A stretch of 44,109 bases of DNA from the IMG/VR virus record IMGVR_UViG_3300047560_001489, positions 1-44,109 of that record; one strand, 5' to 3'. Every line of letters begins with the position of its first letter. Position 1 is the stretch's first letter. The notes under the pieces were generated by a model that made no database searches, had not been told where the DNA came from, and saw only the letters and a list, made by a program, of their open reading frames with translations. The translations under genes were made by a program, and so were the position numbers. This document shows, piece by piece, positions 25,716 through 37,894 of the stretch. The DNA is from a virus.

Positions 25716-26921
25716 ATGAAAAAGCGCAACTACACACAAGACACAGTCAGAAAGCTACAGGGTAGTGTACAGATTGAACACACATTAGCCAAGCGTGGAG
25801 CATATAAACTACGTGAGCTATTAGCAAATGAGCCGTACATCAATACGCTCGGAGCATATAACGGTCAAATGGCCGTACAACACGCTAAGGCGGGGTTGAA
25901 AGCGATTTACTTGTCAGGTTGGCAAGTTGCCGGCGCTAACAATACAGCAAATCAAACATATCCAGATCAATCTTTGTACCCTGTAGATTCTGTACCTCGT
26001 GTAGTTAAAGGCATTAACAATGCTTTCCGTCGCGCTGATCAAATTGAACATAGTGAAGGGAATGTATCTACCGATTATTTCTTGCCCATTGTTGCTGATG
26101 CAGAAGCCGGCTTTGGTGGTGCCTTGAACGCATACGAATTAATGAGTGCTATGATTGAAGCAGGCGCCGCAGGCGTACACTTTGAAGATCAGTTAGCTAG
26201 CGAAAAGAAATGTGGACACTTGGGTGGCAAGGTTCTTGTACCTACCAGCCAAATGATTCGTACACTCAACGCCGCCCGCCTAGCCGCAGATGTTGCCGGT
26301 GTTGACACTGTGATCATGGCACGTACAGATGCAGAAGCCGCTACTCTAATTACTAGCAACCATGATCCATTAGACAAGGACTTTGTAATCAATGAAAGAA
26401 CAGAAGAAGGGTTTTACAAATTTAGAAACGGTATCGATGCTTGCATTGCAAGGGGCTTGGCTTACGCTCCATATGCAGACCTACTATGGTTCGAAACTAG
26501 TACCCCAGACATCAAACAAGCCAAGAAATTTGCAGACGCAATACATGCAGAATTCCCAGATCAGATGTTGGCTTATAACTGCTCTCCGTCGTTTAACTGG
26601 CAAAAATTCTTATCGATAGAAGAATGTGAAACATTCCAACGTGAACTAGGTGAATTAGGCTACAAGTTCCAGTTTATTACCTTAGCAGGTTTCCATAGTG
26701 TTAACCTTGCTACCTTTGAACTAGCAGAAGCATATAAAGCACGTGGCATGGCTGGTTACAGCGAAATGCAACAACGTGAGTTTGAAGCACAGGCTCGCGG
26801 ATTCACAACGGTCAAACACCAACGAGAAGTAGGTGTTGGGTACTTTGACCTTATCAGTACAGCAGTCGGTGCAACCTCTACAGTAGCAAACACACATTCA
26901 ACAGAGGCGGATCAATTTTAA
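25716..26921 (+). CDS. aceA: Isocitrate lyase
   Basis: A 401-aa enzyme that cleaves isocitrate to glyoxylate and succinate, the first step of the glyoxylate shunt. The catalytic loop KKCGHLGG (164-171, nucleophile C166) is intact, as are [12 protein letters not shown] (65-76), [10 protein letters not shown] (126-135), the [10 protein letters not shown] strand, and [12 protein letters not shown] / TLAGFHSVN near the C-terminus. It is slightly shorter than E. coli AceA (434 aa). It has its own strong ribosome binding site (AAGGAG) 12 bases after nrdA. No malate synthase is visible. Its place inside the nrd operon is striking. It was probably taken from a proteobacterial host. Confidence 0.95.
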
Positions 26922-30782: not shown

Positions 30783-31175
30783 ATGGCATATTCGAATCAA
30801 GTTATTGACCATTATGAGAACCCACGAAATGTGGGTTCTTTCGCTAAAGATGATAGGTCAGTCGGTACCGGCATGGTTGGTGCACCTGCTTGCGGCGATG
30901 TAATGAAACTACAAATAAAGGTTGACCATGATACAGGTATTATTACAGATGCGAAATTTAAAACGTATGGCTGCGGATCGGCTATCGCAAGCTCGAGCCT
31001 CGTCACAGAATGGGTCAAAGGAAAAACACTTGATGAAGCAGGATCAATTAAAAACAGCCAAATCGCCGAAGAGCTAGCATTGCCTCCGGTTAAAATACAC
31101 TGCTCGATCTTAGCAGAAGATGCCATTAAGGCAGCAGTAGAGGATTATAGAAAAAAACATGATCTCGTTAACTGA
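30783..31175 (+). CDS. iscU: Iron-sulfur cluster scaffold protein IscU
   Basis: A 130-aa protein that assembles [2Fe-2S] clusters. All scaffold residues are present: C37, D39 (APACGD), C64 (YGCGSA), H106 and C107. The HscA-recognition motif LPPVK is at 100-104. Length and sequence are those of a full proteobacterial IscU, close to the betaproteobacterial form. The ribosome binding site AGGAG lies 7 bases upstream. Its 3' end overlaps iscA by 17 bases. No IscS, HscA/HscB, ferredoxin or IscR gene is visible here, so host partners would be needed. Confidence 0.97.
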   Translation: MAYSNQVIDHYENPRNVGSFAKDDRSVGTGMVGAPACGDVMKLQIKVDHDTGIITDAKFKTYGCGSAIASSSLVTEWVKGKTLDEAGSIKNSQIAEELALPPVKIHCSILAEDAIKAAVEDYRKKHDLVN

Positions 31176-31479
31176 ATCAGCTTCTAACAAAATAACCCAG
31201 ACTCTAAAGAAAAGAGGTAGTGGTCTTGGGATTAGAATTGGTGTAAAAACTACTGGTTGCAGTGGACTAGCCTATGTGTTAGAGTATGTAGATTTGCCCA
31301 GCCCAGAGGATCGCTGTGTAGATTGTGGCGACTGCAAAGTATTCATAGATCCAAAGAGTTGTCCTTACCTTCAGGGCATGACCATTGATTACGTAAAGCA
31401 AGGTCTGAACGAAGGATTTGAATTTAGTAATCCTAACGAAAGAGATCGTTGTGGATGTGGGGAGAGTTTTAGAATATGA
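31159..31479 (+). CDS. iscA: A-type Fe-S carrier IscA, with extra cysteines
   Basis: A 106-aa A-type carrier with the three signature cysteines (C34 in TTGCSG; C98 and C100 in DRCGCGESF). Unlike ordinary IscA it carries four additional cysteines, C53, C56 and C59 (CVDCGDC) and C68, where typical IscA has VFEDKGVKVVVDGKSL-type residues. The added CxxCxxC could bind metal or form disulfides. Overlaps iscU and shares ATGA with erpA. It likely passes clusters or iron to target proteins. Confidence 0.93.
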
Positions 31480-31799
31480 TTGATATAACAGAAGCAGCCG
31501 TTAATAAAATTACCGATCTTTTAACAGAAGAAAATAATCCGAATCTTAAACTTCGTACCTTTGTACAGGGCGGCGGATGTTCAGGATTCAGTTATGGTTT
31601 TACATTTGATGAAGAACAGAATGAAGACGACTTCATAATCGAACGATCCGGAATGGCATTACTAGTTGACGCAATGAGTATGCAATATCTTACAGGTTCG
31701 ACAATTGATTATAAAGAGGAGTTAATGGGCAGTAGTTTTACGATAAATAATCCAAATGCTCAAACAACCTGTGGGTGTGGTAGCAGTTTCAGTATATAA
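31476..31799 (+). CDS. erpA: A-type Fe-S carrier ErpA
   Basis: A 107-aa A-type carrier with [11 protein letters not shown] (C35) and TTCGCGSSF (C99, C101), the ErpA-like signature with [20 protein letters not shown]. It delivers clusters to apo-enzymes. Translationally coupled to iscA. The iscU-iscA-erpA order in one overlapping operon suggests joint function during infection. Confidence 0.95.
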
Positions 31800-32607: not shown

Positions 32608-33192
32608 ATGATTGTCTATATTCATGGGGCAAGTGCCACTGCCGCCAGCTTCACACATATAAGGCAGTATGTTAGGGACTATTTCGAAGAACCCGATATC
32701 ATGCTCGAATATCGAAGCGAAAACGGATTTGCTAACAATCTTAAAGATATGCATGGAAAATTAGATGATGCTGAAAGATTATTTTTTATCAGTCATAGTC
32801 TAGGCGGAATATATGCTCTGCATTTAGCTAATCATTATTCTGAAACCACCCGGGGGGGTGTAAGTCTAAGCACACCATACGGCGGAAGTAAAGAAGCAGA
32901 CTTTGCTAGATATTTTTTACCTTTTAATCGTTTAATGAAAGACATAGGGGTTATGAGTGCTCCTATGCGAGAAGCCAGGAGCTTACCTGCACCCCCAAAT
33001 TGGACACAGGTTGTATCTACAGTTGGGCAGAGTCCTTGGATTAAAGACGACAACGACGGAGTAGTTACATTAGAAAGTATGAGATTTAGGGAAGACTTCG
33101 AGCAAATTGAAGTTCCATTAAATCACTACGAGGTTGTAATAAGCGATCGTGTGGTTGATATCATACTTGACAAGATCAAGAAAGTATTCTAA
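32608..33192 (+). CDS. Alpha/beta-hydrolase (lipase/esterase-like)
   Basis: A 194-aa alpha/beta hydrolase. It has an HG oxyanion motif (IHGASAT, residues 5-11), the nucleophile elbow SHSLGG (S64), a likely acid in KDDNDGVV (D147-D150) and catalytic H173 in LNHYEV. The NDGVVT..S arrangement is typical of PGAP1/lipase-like hydrolases. It may act on lipid or acyl esters, complementing the desaturase (speculative). Its stop is followed by a late promoter motif and the tmRNA. Confidence 0.8.
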   Translation: MIVYIHGASATAASFTHIRQYVRDYFEEPDIMLEYRSENGFANNLKDMHGKLDDAERLFFISHSLGGIYALHLANHYSETTRGGVSLSTPYGGSKEADFARYFLPFNRLMKDIGVMSAPMREARSLPAPPNWTQVVSTVGQSPWIKDDNDGVVTLESMRFREDFEQIEVPLNHYEVVISDRVVDIILDKIKKVF

Positions 33193-33200
33193 AATAAATA
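33193..33200 (+). promoter_or_regulatory. Late promoter-like AATAAATA upstream of tmRNA
   Basis: AATAAATA directly after the hydrolase stop, just before the first hairpin of the tmRNA acceptor piece. It matches the late consensus at 7 of 8 positions, suggesting the tmRNA is made late in infection. Confidence 0.5.
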
Positions 33201-33204
33201 CTTG

Positions 33205-33496
33205 TTATTGCTGTATGAAGCAAAGAGAAAAGTGTTCTGGACGCGGGTTCGACTCCCGCCAGGTCCACCATAAGCATGTTCTTTGAGGTCTTGGTCGTTA
33301 CCAGCGTGGCAAAAACGGCGACAGAGTGTGCTTATGATGGGCCTGCCATGGTTTCGACAGGGCAAAGAGTAACAGAGTGGACAGCACAGTAGGCTATGAC
33401 TTTAAATCAAGCAAAATCTATAGACGCAAACGACGATCTATTCGCAATGGCCGCTTGAGGCCTGCTGAGGGTGTAAGCCCAAGAAACAGAACTTAC
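33205..33496 (+). ncRNA. ssrA: Circularly permuted two-piece tmRNA, tag ANDDLFAMAA
   Basis: tmRNA rescues stalled ribosomes and tags the nascent peptide for proteolysis. The 3' (acceptor) half comes first: a small hairpin (33208-33223), P2 strand TGTTCTG (33233-33239), T-arm GCGGG-TTCGACT-CCCGC (33243-33259), acceptor CAGGTCC (33260-33266), A and encoded CCA (33268-33270). A 68-base intervening segment (33271-33338) begins TAAGCA and has TGCTTA near its end, so it closes on itself. The 5' half follows: acceptor GGGCCTG (33339-33345), D-loop GGTTTCGACA, P2 strand CAGGGCA (33358-33364). The 7-bp acceptor stem holds the G3-U70 pair required by alanyl-tRNA synthetase. The tag frame starts with resume codon GCA at 33426 and reads A-N-D-D-L-F-A-M-A-A, then TGA at 33456. 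TAGAC lies before the resume codon, like E. coli TAGTC. Mature ends are estimates. Confidence 0.95.
33426..33458 (+). CDS. tmRNA tag-peptide reading frame (ANDDLFAMAA + stop)
   Basis: Ten codons and a TGA within the tmRNA. The E. coli tag is ANDENYALAA. Here the ClpX-recognised C-terminus LAA is changed to MAA. GGCC / GGCC (33449-33452 with 33459-33462) can form the helix enclosing the stop codon, as usual in tmRNA. Confidence 0.93.
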   Translation, partial: ANDDLFAMAA

Positions 33497-33521
33497 AAAG
33501 GACCTTCGGGTCCTTTCTTTT
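33497..33521 (+). terminator. Rho-independent terminator after tmRNA
   Basis: Stem AAAGGACC / GGTCCTTT closing a TTCG tetraloop, then CTTTT. Confidence 0.92.
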
Positions 33522-33575
33522 GTCCAAATTTTATAAAACATGTAAACGTTCTATAAGGTTATGGCGTTATTATAT

Positions 33576-34132: not shown

Positions 34133-34474
34133 ATGAACGCCGAACAGACGCTTACACAAATCAAACTTCATTGTATCCAGAATTCTGGAGATGAACAAAT
34201 CTGGACCAATAAAGGCACCACCTATCACTGGAATCGGGGCCGCGATACATCTATCGGAATTGTTAATGGTGTGGTCAGAAAGCTAGCAGGTATCGATGCA
34301 AGCGGTAAACAAATTTGGGTAGTTGCTGGCTCCCTCAAGATTAATCAGTACGGAACCATTCTAAGATTTACCGGTCTTCCTAAGAAGTTACAAAAAACAT
34401 TTGAGCCAGTGCATAAGGTTCATGTTACAAACACAGATAATCCTATTGACTTCCCCCAGACAGAAGTTGTATAA
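34133..34474 (+). CDS. Conserved phage protein (113 aa)
   Basis: A 113-aa soluble protein beginning MNAEQTLTQIKLHCIQNSGD, mostly beta (YHWNRGRDTSIGIVNGVVRKLAG, then KQIWVVAGSLKI). No catalytic motif is recognised. It has its own early-type promoter behind a terminator. It overlaps the next small membrane gene by one base (TAATG). Confidence 0.6.
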   Translation: MNAEQTLTQIKLHCIQNSGDEQIWTNKGTTYHWNRGRDTSIGIVNGVVRKLAGIDASGKQIWVVAGSLKINQYGTILRFTGLPKKLQKTFEPVHKVHVTNTDNPIDFPQTEVV

Positions 34475-34563
34475 TGATTTGGTTAATTCCAGTTATACTA
34501 GTATTCAGTGGTCATCTTTTATTGGCCGTTGCAACTTCTTTCATTATCATTCTTACTGACTAA
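34474..34563 (+). CDS. Tiny membrane protein (29 aa)
   Basis: A 29-aa frame, MIWLIPVILVFSGHLLLAVA plus nine residues: one transmembrane helix with almost no loops. The TAATG overlap with the upstream gene and the following ATG 2 bases after its stop support translation. Function unknown, possibly a membrane modulator of lysis or signalling. Confidence 0.5.
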   Translation: MIWLIPVILVFSGHLLLAVATSFIIILTD

Positions 34564-34564
34564 C

Positions 34565-34963
34565 ATGACAATGCATTTAGAAGGCCCGTGGCTCAGCACC
34601 ACCGGCAAGCGCAAAGGTAAAGTTAAATTTCGTAATGCCGAAGAAGCCCGCAAGGCTCGCGAATTAGATGAGTCTTGGAAAGATCTTCAAAAGAAATGGG
34701 GCATCGAGGCCGAAGAGAAAAAACGCAAGCGAGCCCTTTCTGCTCCAGTTATGCTTCCTACACAGACAACAGGAATCTATCGCCGAGATACCGGTCCCCG
34801 AATCCCTAGTCGCAATTCTGCTGACATGACTCCGGCTACTAAGGCCCCTGAAAAAGTTTACACAGGAACAAAGATTATTGGCATTGGTACAATGCACAAG
34901 AGCAATGCTGTTCCTATCTTTAGTGACGACGAAGCTAAAGAAATTAGTAGTATGCGTCGATAA
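34565..34963 (+). CDS. Conserved T4-like phage protein (132 aa)
   Basis: The ATG at 34565 (MTMHLEGPWLSTTGKRKGKVKFRNAEEARKAREL) is chosen; upstream in-frame codons overlap the tiny membrane gene. The N-terminal 60 residues are basic and helical. The GPWLSTTGKRKGK..FR..EEA.KAREL pattern recurs in T4-like cyanophages and pelagiphages. The C-terminal half is probably disordered. Unknown function. Confidence 0.65.
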   Translation: MTMHLEGPWLSTTGKRKGKVKFRNAEEARKARELDESWKDLQKKWGIEAEEKKRKRALSAPVMLPTQTTGIYRRDTGPRIPSRNSADMTPATKAPEKVYTGTKIIGIGTMHKSNAVPIFSDDEAKEISSMRR

Positions 34964-34966
34964 ATA
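34959..34966 (+). promoter_or_regulatory. Late promoter-like GATAAATA
   Basis: GATAAATA overlapping the preceding stop; the next ATG is only 7 bases away, so it may serve downstream genes or be coincidental. Confidence 0.3.
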
Positions 34967-34972
34967 TTTCTT

Positions 34973-36268
34973 ATGCCAGTAACTTTTAATGAAAAATTTA
35001 TAGCCTATCTAGCACTATTCAGTGGATTGTTTATTTCATTTATAGCAGAATACTACAGTATTGTGGGATTTACTGCTATATTTGCCGCCGCCGCCATTCC
35101 CGTTATTATAATGGGTATAGCATTGGGTGTGGGTAAGATCACTGCTACTGTATGGCTCAAACAGAATTGGAGTATATCTCCGTGGACAGTTCGCATATAT
35201 CTACTTACGGCTATTGCAGTATTAATGGCTGTAACCTCATTGGGTATCTTTGGTTTCTTGAGTAAAGCACACAGTGATCAAAGTCTAGTAAGTGGTGACG
35301 TTCAAAGTAAGATTGCAGTCTATGATGAAAAGATTAAAGTAGCAAAGGACAATATCGATGCAAACCGCAAAGCACTTAAACAAATGGATGAGGCGGTGGA
35401 CCAGGTTATGGGTCGAAGCACAGATGAAAAAGGTGCCGACAAAGCCGTGGCCATACGCAGAGGACAATCCAAAGAACGTACTAGACTTCTTGCTGAAATC
35501 CAAGCCGAACAGAAAACAATTACTCAACTTAGTGAAGAACGAGCGCCAATTGCGGCTGAAGTGCGTAAAGTCGAGGCCGAAGTTGGCCCGATAAAATATA
35601 TAGCGGCATTCGTATATGGCGATACAGATTCAACGGTATTAGAAAAGGCAGTTACCTGGGTTATTATATTACTGATTGTAGTATTTGATCCGTTGGCTGT
35701 TATTCTTCTATTAGCAAGCCAAATTAGTTTCCAAAACTTTAGAGATAGAGAACGCTGGGACTTTGAACGTAACCTAGAAGAAGCTGCCGATGCGTTTAAT
35801 GATGTGTTTGCAGACGATCTGGACAATTACCGTCCGGATCCTTATGTAGCAGATGTAGGCGAAAAGCCCACTGCCGAAGAACTTGCGGAGGGTGACAGCC
35901 CATCAGGTACGGAGCCCGACGTAGTCACTCCGGCAACCACTGTCACAGAACATCATCCTGATACACATCCTTATCTCCGCCAAGGATTTAAATTTCCTGA
36001 AAATTACGAGCGTGTTGGGCCCATGGTAGCAAAGCAAGAGATTATAGAACCAGCGGTACAAGCTGACGAACCTCTGTTTGTTCAAAATGAGGAGCAGAAA
36101 GAAAGCGACCTATGGACCAGTACTATTAGCAAAGAAGAATACCAACATCATAGTGCAGAAGAAGTTGACAACGAAATAGATCGTTATGCTACTCTAGTAA
36201 AATCAGGTCAAATGCTAATGTCTGATGTTCCAGAATCTATATTACTAGCAGTTAGAGCAAAGGTATAA
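34973..36268 (+). CDS. Multi-pass membrane protein with coiled coil (431 aa)
   Basis: Four predicted transmembrane helices: residues about 8-26, 31-53, 73-97 (YLLTAIAVLMAVTSLGIFGF) and 228-248 (VIILLIVVFDPLAVILLLAS). A coiled coil (about 105-200) sits between helices 3 and 4, and a long acidic cytoplasmic C-terminal tail follows (about 265-431). This arrangement, with the VFDPLAV motif, is seen in uncharacterised membrane proteins of T4-like marine phages. It starts the block leading to clpX and rpsU. Function unknown. Confidence 0.7.
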   Translation: MPVTFNEKFIAYLALFSGLFISFIAEYYSIVGFTAIFAAAAIPVIIMGIALGVGKITATVWLKQNWSISPWTVRIYLLTAIAVLMAVTSLGIFGFLSKAHSDQSLVSGDVQSKIAVYDEKIKVAKDNIDANRKALKQMDEAVDQVMGRSTDEKGADKAVAIRRGQSKERTRLLAEIQAEQKTITQLSEERAPIAAEVRKVEAEVGPIKYIAAFVYGDTDSTVLEKAVTWVIILLIVVFDPLAVILLLASQISFQNFRDRERWDFERNLEEAADAFNDVFADDLDNYRPDPYVADVGEKPTAEELAEGDSPSGTEPDVVTPATTVTEHHPDTHPYLRQGFKFPENYERVGPMVAKQEIIEPAVQADEPLFVQNEEQKESDLWTSTISKEEYQHHSAEEVDNEIDRYATLVKSGQMLMSDVPESILLAVRAKV

Positions 36269-36270
36269 AA

Positions 36271-36678
36271 TTGACAAATAAACTTACATTAATAACTCCG
36301 CCTGATTTCTTTGAAAATGAAAATTATAGTATAATGTTTATTCATCTATCAGACGACGATCAGGCCAAGGTAAGTAAATGGCTTGCTGAAACTGAATTGA
36401 CTGAACATATCAATATATATTTTTATGATCATGAAATTGAGATACCTTGGCTTTTATATGCGTTGTCTAAGTGTGAGTATAAGTATATAGACTTAGACAG
36501 ACTTAATACTGCCACTGATGCCTTGAGTGGACACATATTAGGAAAAAACGATATTTACTATAAAATTAATGACGAAAACTTGTCGGCAATTTATCATTAT
36601 ATAAATCAGAATAGAATATCATCTGTTGAAAACTTCTTGCAGAAGGCACTAAATGAAAAAATCAGACCATCACTGTGA
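36271..36678 (+). CDS. Conserved phage protein (135 aa), TTG start
   Basis: A 135-aa acidic alpha/beta protein starting at TTG 36271, 2 bases after the previous stop, with AAAGG upstream. The first half resembles a small Rossmann-like or ATPase-accessory pattern (IMFIHLSDDDQAKVSKWLAE), but no nucleotide motif is clear. It overlaps clpX by 26 bases, so coupling to ClpX production is likely; an adaptor role is only a guess. Confidence 0.6.
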   Translation: MTNKLTLITPPDFFENENYSIMFIHLSDDDQAKVSKWLAETELTEHINIYFYDHEIEIPWLLYALSKCEYKYIDLDRLNTATDALSGHILGKNDIYYKINDENLSAIYHYINQNRISSVENFLQKALNEKIRPSL

Positions 36679-37894
36679 TTTTTGTAATAAAAGCAAAGAC
36701 GAAGTTGAGAAACTTATTGTCGGTGATAATGCAGCCATATGTAATGATTGTGTAGATCTTTGTATAGACATACTTAAAGATGAAAAAGTAAAAACATTTC
36801 CTAACGAGAAAAAACTTCTTAATCCTGCACTTATCAAAGAGTACCTTGATGAATACGTAATAGGCCAGGAAGAGGCTAAAATTGCATTAAGTGTTGCTGT
36901 AAGTCAACATTTTAAAAGGATTAATAATCCTAGCAAAGATATTGAGTTAGAAAAAACAAATGTGTTGTTATTAGGTCCTACAGGCTGCGGTAAGACTATG
37001 ATGGCACGTAAAATTGCTCAATATTTAGACCTACCGTTTGCTATTTGCGATGCTACTGGTATTACAGAAGCCGGGTATGTGGGCGATGACGTTGAGAGCA
37101 TTCTTACTCGACTCATAAATGAAGCAGATGGTGACATAGAGAAAGCCAGTCGAGGTGTTGTTTATATTGATGAAATTGATAAAATTTCGAGAAAAGGTGA
37201 AAGTGCTAGTATTACTAGAGACGTAAGTGGAGAAGGCGTCCAGCAAGGTCTTCTAAAAATGATTGAAGGCAGTATTATGCGTGTCCCTAGTACCGGAAAA
37301 AGAAAACATCCCAACGGCGACATCCAAGAAATAGATACCCGGGGGATCCTATTCATTTGTGGTGGTGCATTTGTCGGAATAGATAAAATCATAGGGCAAA
37401 GAACAGGAGCCAAATCAGTAGGTTTCCATGCCAATGTTGAAAATAAAAATGATGATGAGCTTTACAGAAATGTAATAACCAAGGACTTAATCAAATTCGG
37501 TCTTATTCCTGAATTTGTAGGAAGGTTTGGAATTATAACCAACGTAGAAGAATTAAATGAAGACCAAATGGTTCAAATTTTAAAAAATACAAAGAACAGT
37601 ATTGTAGATCAATACAAATACATGTTTGAACTTGACGGAATTAAATTAGAATTCGATAATGATGCGTTAAAAGAAATAGCGTCAAAGGCCAAAGAACTTA
37701 AAACCAACGCAAGGGGACTCAAGAGTATTGTAGAAAAAATTCTACTTCCATACCAATTTGATGCAGTTAACCTTGTTGAAAGAGGGTTAGAATCAATTCG
37801 GATAAGTAAAGATACAATTGATGGCAGACCTGCCGTTATGATTTTCAATAACAATAAAAATGAGCAAAAACAACAAACCACTAATGGGAAATAA
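36653..37894 (+). CDS. clpX: ATP-dependent unfoldase ClpX
   Basis: A 413-aa AAA+ unfoldase. N-terminal zinc domain: C8, C11, C30, C33. Walker A GPTGCGKT (108-115), Walker B VVYIDEID (169-176), pore-1 loop GYVG (141-144), pore-2 RKH (217-219), sensor-2 ARGLKS near residue 354. The ClpP-docking loop is VGF (256-258), replacing E. coli IGF. All unfoldase parts therefore look functional, and the docking loop is kept. Cellular ClpX unfolds substrates such as ssrA-tagged proteins and feeds ClpP. Few phages are known to carry ClpX. It overlaps the genes on both sides (26 and 35 bases), the last being bS21. Confidence 0.97.
   Translation: MKKSDHHCDFCNKSKDEVEKLIVGDNAAICNDCVDLCIDILKDEKVKTFPNEKKLLNPALIKEYLDEYVIGQEEAKIALSVAVSQHFKRINNPSKDIELEKTNVLLLGPTGCGKTMMARKIAQYLDLPFAICDATGITEAGYVGDDVESILTRLINEADGDIEKASRGVVYIDEIDKISRKGESASITRDVSGEGVQQGLLKMIEGSIMRVPSTGKRKHPNGDIQEIDTRGILFICGGAFVGIDKIIGQRTGAKSVGFHANVENKNDDELYRNVITKDLIKFGLIPEFVGRFGIITNVEELNEDQMVQILKNTKNSIVDQYKYMFELDGIKLEFDNDALKEIASKAKELKTNARGLKSIVEKILLPYQFDAVNLVERGLESIRISKDTIDGRPAVMIFNNNKNEQKQQTTNGK

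Follow-up and report, generated by a model that had tools for sequence, protein, structure and literature searches.

A permuted two-piece tmRNA gene of a T4-like freshwater phage with a conserved hairpin module in its spacer, and small genes in the spacers of related phages

A permuted two-piece tmRNA gene

In the window, the whole stretch of 44,109 bases that was analysed, ARAGORN recognizes a sole RNA gene, a permuted tmRNA at 33178-33549 with the tag ANDDLFAMAA*. An earlier note on this DNA had proposed a phage-borne permuted two-piece tmRNA at this place and had named covariance models and ARAGORN as a check. This check has been run and bears the proposal out: besides the tmRNA* call by ARAGORN, the Rfam models RF01850 (beta_tmRNA; 134.9 bits, E 3.7e-41, cut-off 84) and RF04321 (tmRNA_permuted; 132.8 bits versus a cut-off of 47) both match at full length above cut-off, in agreement with a base-by-base reading. 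As judged from the sequence, the permuted two-piece tmRNA gene extends over 33209-33496, and all features tested have been found in it. The gene and its putative transcription signals are composed of the following elements:

33167-33195, + strand: putative sigma-70-type promoter, TTGACA-17-TAAAAT, matching the consensus at 11 of 12 bases and overlapping the tail of the preceding ORF
33209-33270, + strand: 3' half of the tmRNA with the 3' strand of P2, T arm, CAGGTCC, A73 and CCA (sequence, ARAGORN, Rfam)
33271-33338, + strand: intervening segment (spacer) of 68 nt with a conserved hairpin module, predicted to be lost on maturation
33339-33496, + strand: 5' half of the tmRNA with GGGCCTG, D-loop region TGGTTTCGAC, 5' strand of P2, tag and 3' pseudoknot region
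33426-33458, + strand: tag frame ANDDLFAMAA plus stop (ARAGORN)
33497-33521, + strand: putative intrinsic terminator AAAGGACC-TTCG-GGTCCTTT with T-rich tail, the UUCG hairpin itself at 33497-33516

In gene order, the 3' half with its T arm and CCA comes first, then the spacer and then the 5' half. The T arm consists of a GCGGG/CCCGC stem and the loop TTCGACT, while the acceptor GGGCCTG/CAGGTCC forms seven of seven pairs including G3-U70, an alanine identity feature. ACCA is encoded with its last base at 33270, and the tag frame reads open from the resume codon to a ClpXP-type tail. The CCA end at 33270 and the start of the 5' half at 33339 had been placed correctly by the earlier note, which had also seen the 68-nt spacer, the 7-bp acceptor with G3-U70, the tag frame and the UUCG terminator. 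The putative promoter also falls within the promoter stretch covered by the RF01850 model, and with its own promoter and its own UUCG terminator the gene is apparently a complete transcription unit. The beta model gave the best full-length clade-specific match, with the best overlapping clan model being the one listed, and the gene is not of the alphaproteobacterial (Melnitz) type.

Two further candidate signals have been discarded. The T4 late promoter motif TATAAATA has a one-mismatch match at 33193, but 110 such matches occur in the window versus 110 expected. Equally, the MAA end of the tag is not a special phage signal, as the consensus of the beta model already reads AMAA there.

The phage context and a constant gene slot

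The contig, an IMG/VR virus record, is a T4-like freshwater phage with phage-type genes for tail fibre, virion, exonuclease, NrdA/NrdB, helicase and methyltransferase. Phage genes flank the tmRNA on both sides and a host flank is absent. Auxiliary metabolic genes in the window encode an isocitrate lyase (25716-26921), IscU with two A-type Fe-S carriers (30783-31799) and, by eye, a desaturase-like membrane protein (1995-2705). Isocitrate lyase was uninformative as a guide to the host, with a best match of 69% to Hwanghaeella followed mostly by actinobacteria.

At least 179 viral relatives of the phage ClpX have been found, and synteny has been read around the best 80 with the following genes downstream of the tmRNA slot:

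34133-36678, + strand: conserved four-gene block that separates the tmRNA slot from clpX; it served for the synteny test, its genes being present in 50, 76, 74 and 80 of 80 loci
36653-37894, + strand: phage ClpX with zinc-finger domain and AAA+ domain; its gene is part of the clade core and follows the tmRNA slot 3-9 kb further downstream

Genes p34508, p34973, p36271, clpX and a dnaQ-type exonuclease gene are present in 71-80 of the best 80 loci, and all 27 clade copies of the tmRNA called by ARAGORN share one strand and one slot, with the nrdB/grx genes to one side and p34133/p34508 to the other. That the gene is phage-borne is thus upheld by the virus record, the phage gene neighbourhood and dozens of related contigs with the identical slot; phage flanks together with a constant slot and strand in the related loci make misassembly or host chromosomal DNA, alternatives already raised in the earlier note, very unlikely. 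The search of related phages that had also been suggested found permuted copies in about half of the phage's own clade (40 of the 72 loci in which 8 kb or more precede clpX, by ARAGORN and our own detector), so that the tmRNA is not essential. A special link between tmRNA and ClpX has been dismissed, as clpX belongs to the clade core with or without tmRNA and 29 other tmRNA-carrying records are devoid of the ClpX zinc finger. No smpB gene has been detected in the window contig or in 29 other tmRNA-carrying records, many of which are fragments; host SmpB must therefore be assumed.

Permuted tmRNAs in other phages and in bacteria

The two-piece phage tmRNA as such is already known. The earlier note was aware of no permuted tmRNA in phages, a view overtaken by a study of 2022 (PMC9004378) which reports a two-piece tmRNA in the OM43 phage Melnitz and 53 two-piece molecules among 133 distinct phage tmRNA structures, 50 of the 53 from marine or aquatic phages. 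Pattern scans of IMG/VR together with the ClpX clade now provide at least 275 distinct phage permuted tmRNAs, a few of them from named phages. The seven named phages with an ARAGORN-called permuted tmRNA are Marzo, Bhz51, Rb1, QDWS359, X1, QDWS595 and XacN1. The named cultured carriers (L077-L083) are Stenotrophomonas, Xanthomonas and Alcaligenes phages, in which several copies are unannotated; the hosts of the Stenotrophomonas and Xanthomonas phages probably have a one-piece tmRNA.

A comparison of 53 distinct phage copies shows that pairs 4 and 5 of the acceptor covary, as CG, GC or AT and with a single broken cell, that the T stem covaries and that G3 is a G in 53 of 53. Pairs 4 and 5 and G3 had been left free by the search pattern; pairs 1, 2 and 7 as well as U70 were for the most part set by it and are not counted as evidence. 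Judged by these comparisons, the phage tmRNA structure is not due to chance and is under selection. Furthermore, 94% of the distinct copies have spacer ends that pair over 6 bp or more, versus 19% of shuffles, and the tags, most of which end in -LAA, stay open across relatives.

Several copies depart from the common design. Very long tags of 23-33 residues, for example ANADTFDFSAMSFTGNTVRGAANESRFALAA, occur in L009, L040, L008, L018, L002, L012 and others as well as in L449; they consist of an extra N-terminal piece ahead of the normal ten-residue tag, and four records with long tags also encode a true ClpP. The D-loop region of the tRNA-like domain is altered in L185 and L191, while in L222 (105-580) and L245 (2663-3099) TTCGA with TGGTTTCGAC (T loop and D-loop region) is replaced by GGGGGCAGTGCCC with ACACAGGATCGATT. 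In L202, L205, L208 and L226 the gene ends in ACC followed by G or T, with CCA not fully encoded.

In bacteria, none of 200 genomes of one sample passed the beta cut-off, the class, phylum and order samples being without a usable betaproteobacterial set. Two genomes of one order, L253 (G052) and L542 (G691), possess permuted tmRNAs of 141-147 bits with the rest of the sampled order below cut-off, which makes lateral transfer possible. Seventeen bacterial spacers, probably alphaproteobacterial for the most part, measure 27-57 nt and leave no room for such small genes as are described below; one more, of 96 nt, is a doubtful detection.

A conserved hairpin module in the spacer

The self-complementary spacer ends seen by the earlier note are present and are longer than had been noted, with 12 of 12 bases pairing between 33271-33282 and 33323-33334. 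The note had treated the spacer as otherwise featureless; it is in fact occupied by a conserved hairpin module, the unexpected part of the locus:

33271-33282, + strand: 5' arm of helix P1 (12 bp), pairing with 33323-33334, covariation in 25 sequences
33281-33324, + strand: near-invariant hairpin core CTTTGAGGTCTTGGTCGTTACCAGCGTGGCAAAAACGGCGACAG, which recurs in the spacers of other tmRNAs and within tRNA arrays of phages
33323-33334, + strand: 3' arm of helix P1, pairing with 33271-33282, covariation in 25 sequences

In 25 distinct sequences the 12 bp of P1 are 95.7% paired with changes on both sides in 9 of 12 pairs; none of 500 shuffles performed as well and no slid version came close. Core positions inside the search pattern are conserved by construction, but CTTT, G23, T37 and CAG are invariant although the pattern left them free. 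As the inner core hardly varies, P1 alone is supported by covariation. The covariance model R1 scores the window spacer at 90.5 bits (E 3.1e-20), with the window copy among the 25 rows of the model, and also finds a diverged copy (L224; 43 bits) not used in building it. The folding energy of the module is not unusual (MFE z -0.7).

The exact core pattern is present in 32 viral contigs. Besides the window, about 17 copies are located inside permuted tmRNAs, as recognized by ARAGORN or by the flanking halves, and Blast clusters the window spacer with spacers of tmRNAs that have different acceptors and tags. Another 14-15 or so copies stand alone, with a longer hairpin such as CCATATTAAAGCACACTC...GAGTGTGCTTTAATATGG. 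At 15 standalone loci a tRNA on the same strand lies within about 20-150 nt in nine and at 310 nt in one, the neighbours being mostly arrays of many tRNAs; four near-identical loci are 2.5 kb from the nearest tRNA and one is without tRNA. No Rfam family reaches its gathering cut-off for the spacer hairpin, and a relaxed search returned mainly long-hairpin miRNA models far below cut-off. The module was not found in 50,697 records of named phages and 72,556 plasmids or, as the exact pattern, in 398 genomes of the phylum. As far as checked, the hairpin of the window is a new, hitherto undescribed RNA module.

Other spacers hold different RNA elements. A second spacer module of 87 nt (L321 type) is also found in the tRNA array of L528. 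The T-loop-like motif GTTCRANYC occurs in ten spacers versus 0.84 expected, and tRNA-like remnants (T arm) are seen in the phage permuted tmRNA spacers of L221, L229, L408, L405, L239 and L402.

Small genes in the spacers of related phages

The distinct spacers that measure 80 nt or longer number 153, and 62 of them contain an ORF that has a Shine-Dalgarno sequence, starts 9-15 nt after CCA and reaches the spacer end, compared with 1.1 expected from full shuffles and 4.3 from shuffles with both ends kept. In 33 of these the stop is situated one base ahead of the 5' half. The predicted peptides form 31 groups, and one membrane segment is seen in several of these. The tmRNA genes that carry the ORFs are intact, as 62 of 62 show 7/7 acceptor pairs, G3-U70 and CCA, and 58 of 62 are called tmRNA* by ARAGORN. 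Such an ORF is present in 4 of 38 in the ClpX clade, a set assembled without regard to spacer length; the 68-nt spacer of the window has none.

Over twelve families, with the last 12 nt excluded, the pooled dN/dS is 0.31 and substitutions at codon positions 1/2/3 amount to 210/110/276; one family of very close sequences has a dN/dS of 0.92. The L490 peptide matches PF14083 above cut-off and also phrog_419, the L449 peptide matches phrog_13558 (E 1e-12), and homologues outside tmRNA with 60-77% identity exist on other contigs for L341, L408, L318, L469 and L461/L499. By these measures of sequence change, the spacer ORFs are under coding selection. A search of open-access papers for ORFs in a tmRNA spacer returned nothing relevant.

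Discussion

The gene is probably a phage-owned permuted ssrA that is transcribed on its own signals, is processed by the host and gives rise to an SmpB-using rescue RNA with the spacer as cargo slot. Transcription would proceed from the sigma-70-type promoter to the terminator of the gene and yield a precursor of 3' half, spacer and 5' half. Host tRNA enzymes are predicted to cut after CCA (33270) and before G1 (33339) with loss of the spacer, upon which the two pieces would pair via acceptor and P2 and might be charged with alanine through G3-U70. With host SmpB the molecule would, as in other members of the family, rescue ribosomes stalled on broken messages in infection, the products being tagged with ANDDLFAMAA and directed to ClpXP. 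As T4-like infection makes broken messages, extra rescue capacity is a plausible benefit.

The cargo in the window phage would be the conserved tRNA-array hairpin, and elsewhere small genes that start on a Shine-Dalgarno sequence just past CCA. The end helix P1 is seemingly the sole constrained part of the spacer, which suggests a cargo slot. In ORF-bearing spacers the Shine-Dalgarno sequence lies in P1 opposite the stop region, so that cargo translation and precursor folding may compete. The spacer is probably a dedicated slot for interchangeable small genes and structured RNAs, with P1 tying the ribosome binding site of the cargo to tmRNA processing.

Alternative explanations differ in weight. 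The phage molecule might mainly be a decoy. By sequestering SmpB or by competing with the tmRNA of the host it would block rescue there, a role that has been put forward for mycobacteriophage DS6A, whose tmRNA consists of the tRNA-like domain only; a DS6A-type molecule has been described to inhibit tmRNA (PMC4131195, citing Mao 2009; PMC11915505). A decoy would need no tag, so that the open, mostly -LAA-ending tags across relatives count against it; moreover, the gene is full, with intact tag frame, G3-U70, pseudoknot region and terminator, and we consider a decoy improbable. Even less credence is due to a functionless passenger, be it host ssrA captured by imprecise excision or an assembly chimera. 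Capture has in its favour that mobile elements often integrate at ssrA and that the authors on Melnitz considered such an origin (PMC9004378), but phage genes on both sides instead of a host flank, slot and strand constant in 27/27 related loci, the divergence of sequences, tags and spacers and the presence of compensatory changes leave this explanation extremely improbable. Almost as remote is a reading of the spacer ORFs as open frames due to chance or RNA constraint: they are short, their start and stop fall in or near the constrained P1 and some continue into the 5' half, yet 62 ORFs versus 4.3 expected with ends fixed, the dN/dS of 0.31 without the last 12 nt, and known families and free-standing homologues argue for genes.

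A mere processing signal or precursor clamp without function after excision is a serious contender for the spacer hairpin, to which we give somewhat less than an even chance and which is compatible with the rescue RNA and cargo slot proposed here. In tmRNAs the module follows the CCA end, in many arrays it sits within about 20 nt of a tRNA, and its covarying part is P1. A near-invariant core of 40 nt is, however, unneeded for clamping, other spacers retain P1 around unrelated contents, and CTTT, G23, T37 and CAG are invariant though not fixed by the pattern.

With respect to known systems, the gene resembles the betaproteobacterial two-piece tmRNA (RF01850; RF04321) in the order of the halves, T arm, G3-U70 acceptor, CCA, promoter stretch, ten-residue tag (model consensus ANDEHFAMAA) and terminator hairpin, and differs from it by residing in a phage and by a spacer hairpin common to phage tRNA arrays. 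Like the tmRNAs of Melnitz and other aquatic phages (PMC9004378), it is phage-encoded and permuted in an aquatic, T4-like phage with nrdA/nrdB. The Melnitz type differs in being alphaproteobacterial and in its link with a glutamine riboswitch; what its spacer contains is not taken up in the passages concerned. A foreign RNA within the spacer has a parallel in GCA-2688965, a nominal archaeal MAG with a tRNA-Ala in the spacer of a permuted tmRNA, a single case termed unique for which small genes were not reported (PMC11915505). Equally, protein genes in a removed part are known from group I intron tmRNAs with homing endonuclease genes, where a non-permuted gene is interrupted in its T loop by a splicing intron (PMC11915505), whereas the phage spacers are without intron, their excision is predicted to occur by tRNA processing and their proteins are diverse and small. 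The tmRNA database paper describes spacers with one tRNA-Ala and one repetitive element and mentions no genes.

The hairpin module can also be likened, by description only, to the T4 RNAs C and D in its location between tRNAs. These stable RNAs of the T4 tRNA cluster are small structured RNAs between phage tRNAs.

The contents of the spacer are a departure from known permuted tmRNAs, and the discarded part of a maturing tmRNA as a gene slot is new as far as found. If true, genes would be nested such that a single transcript yields the RNA for ribosome rescue along with a small protein or a second RNA. The slot also provides dozens of unannotated phage small proteins and an RNA family with a sharp context, beside tRNA and tmRNA CCA ends.
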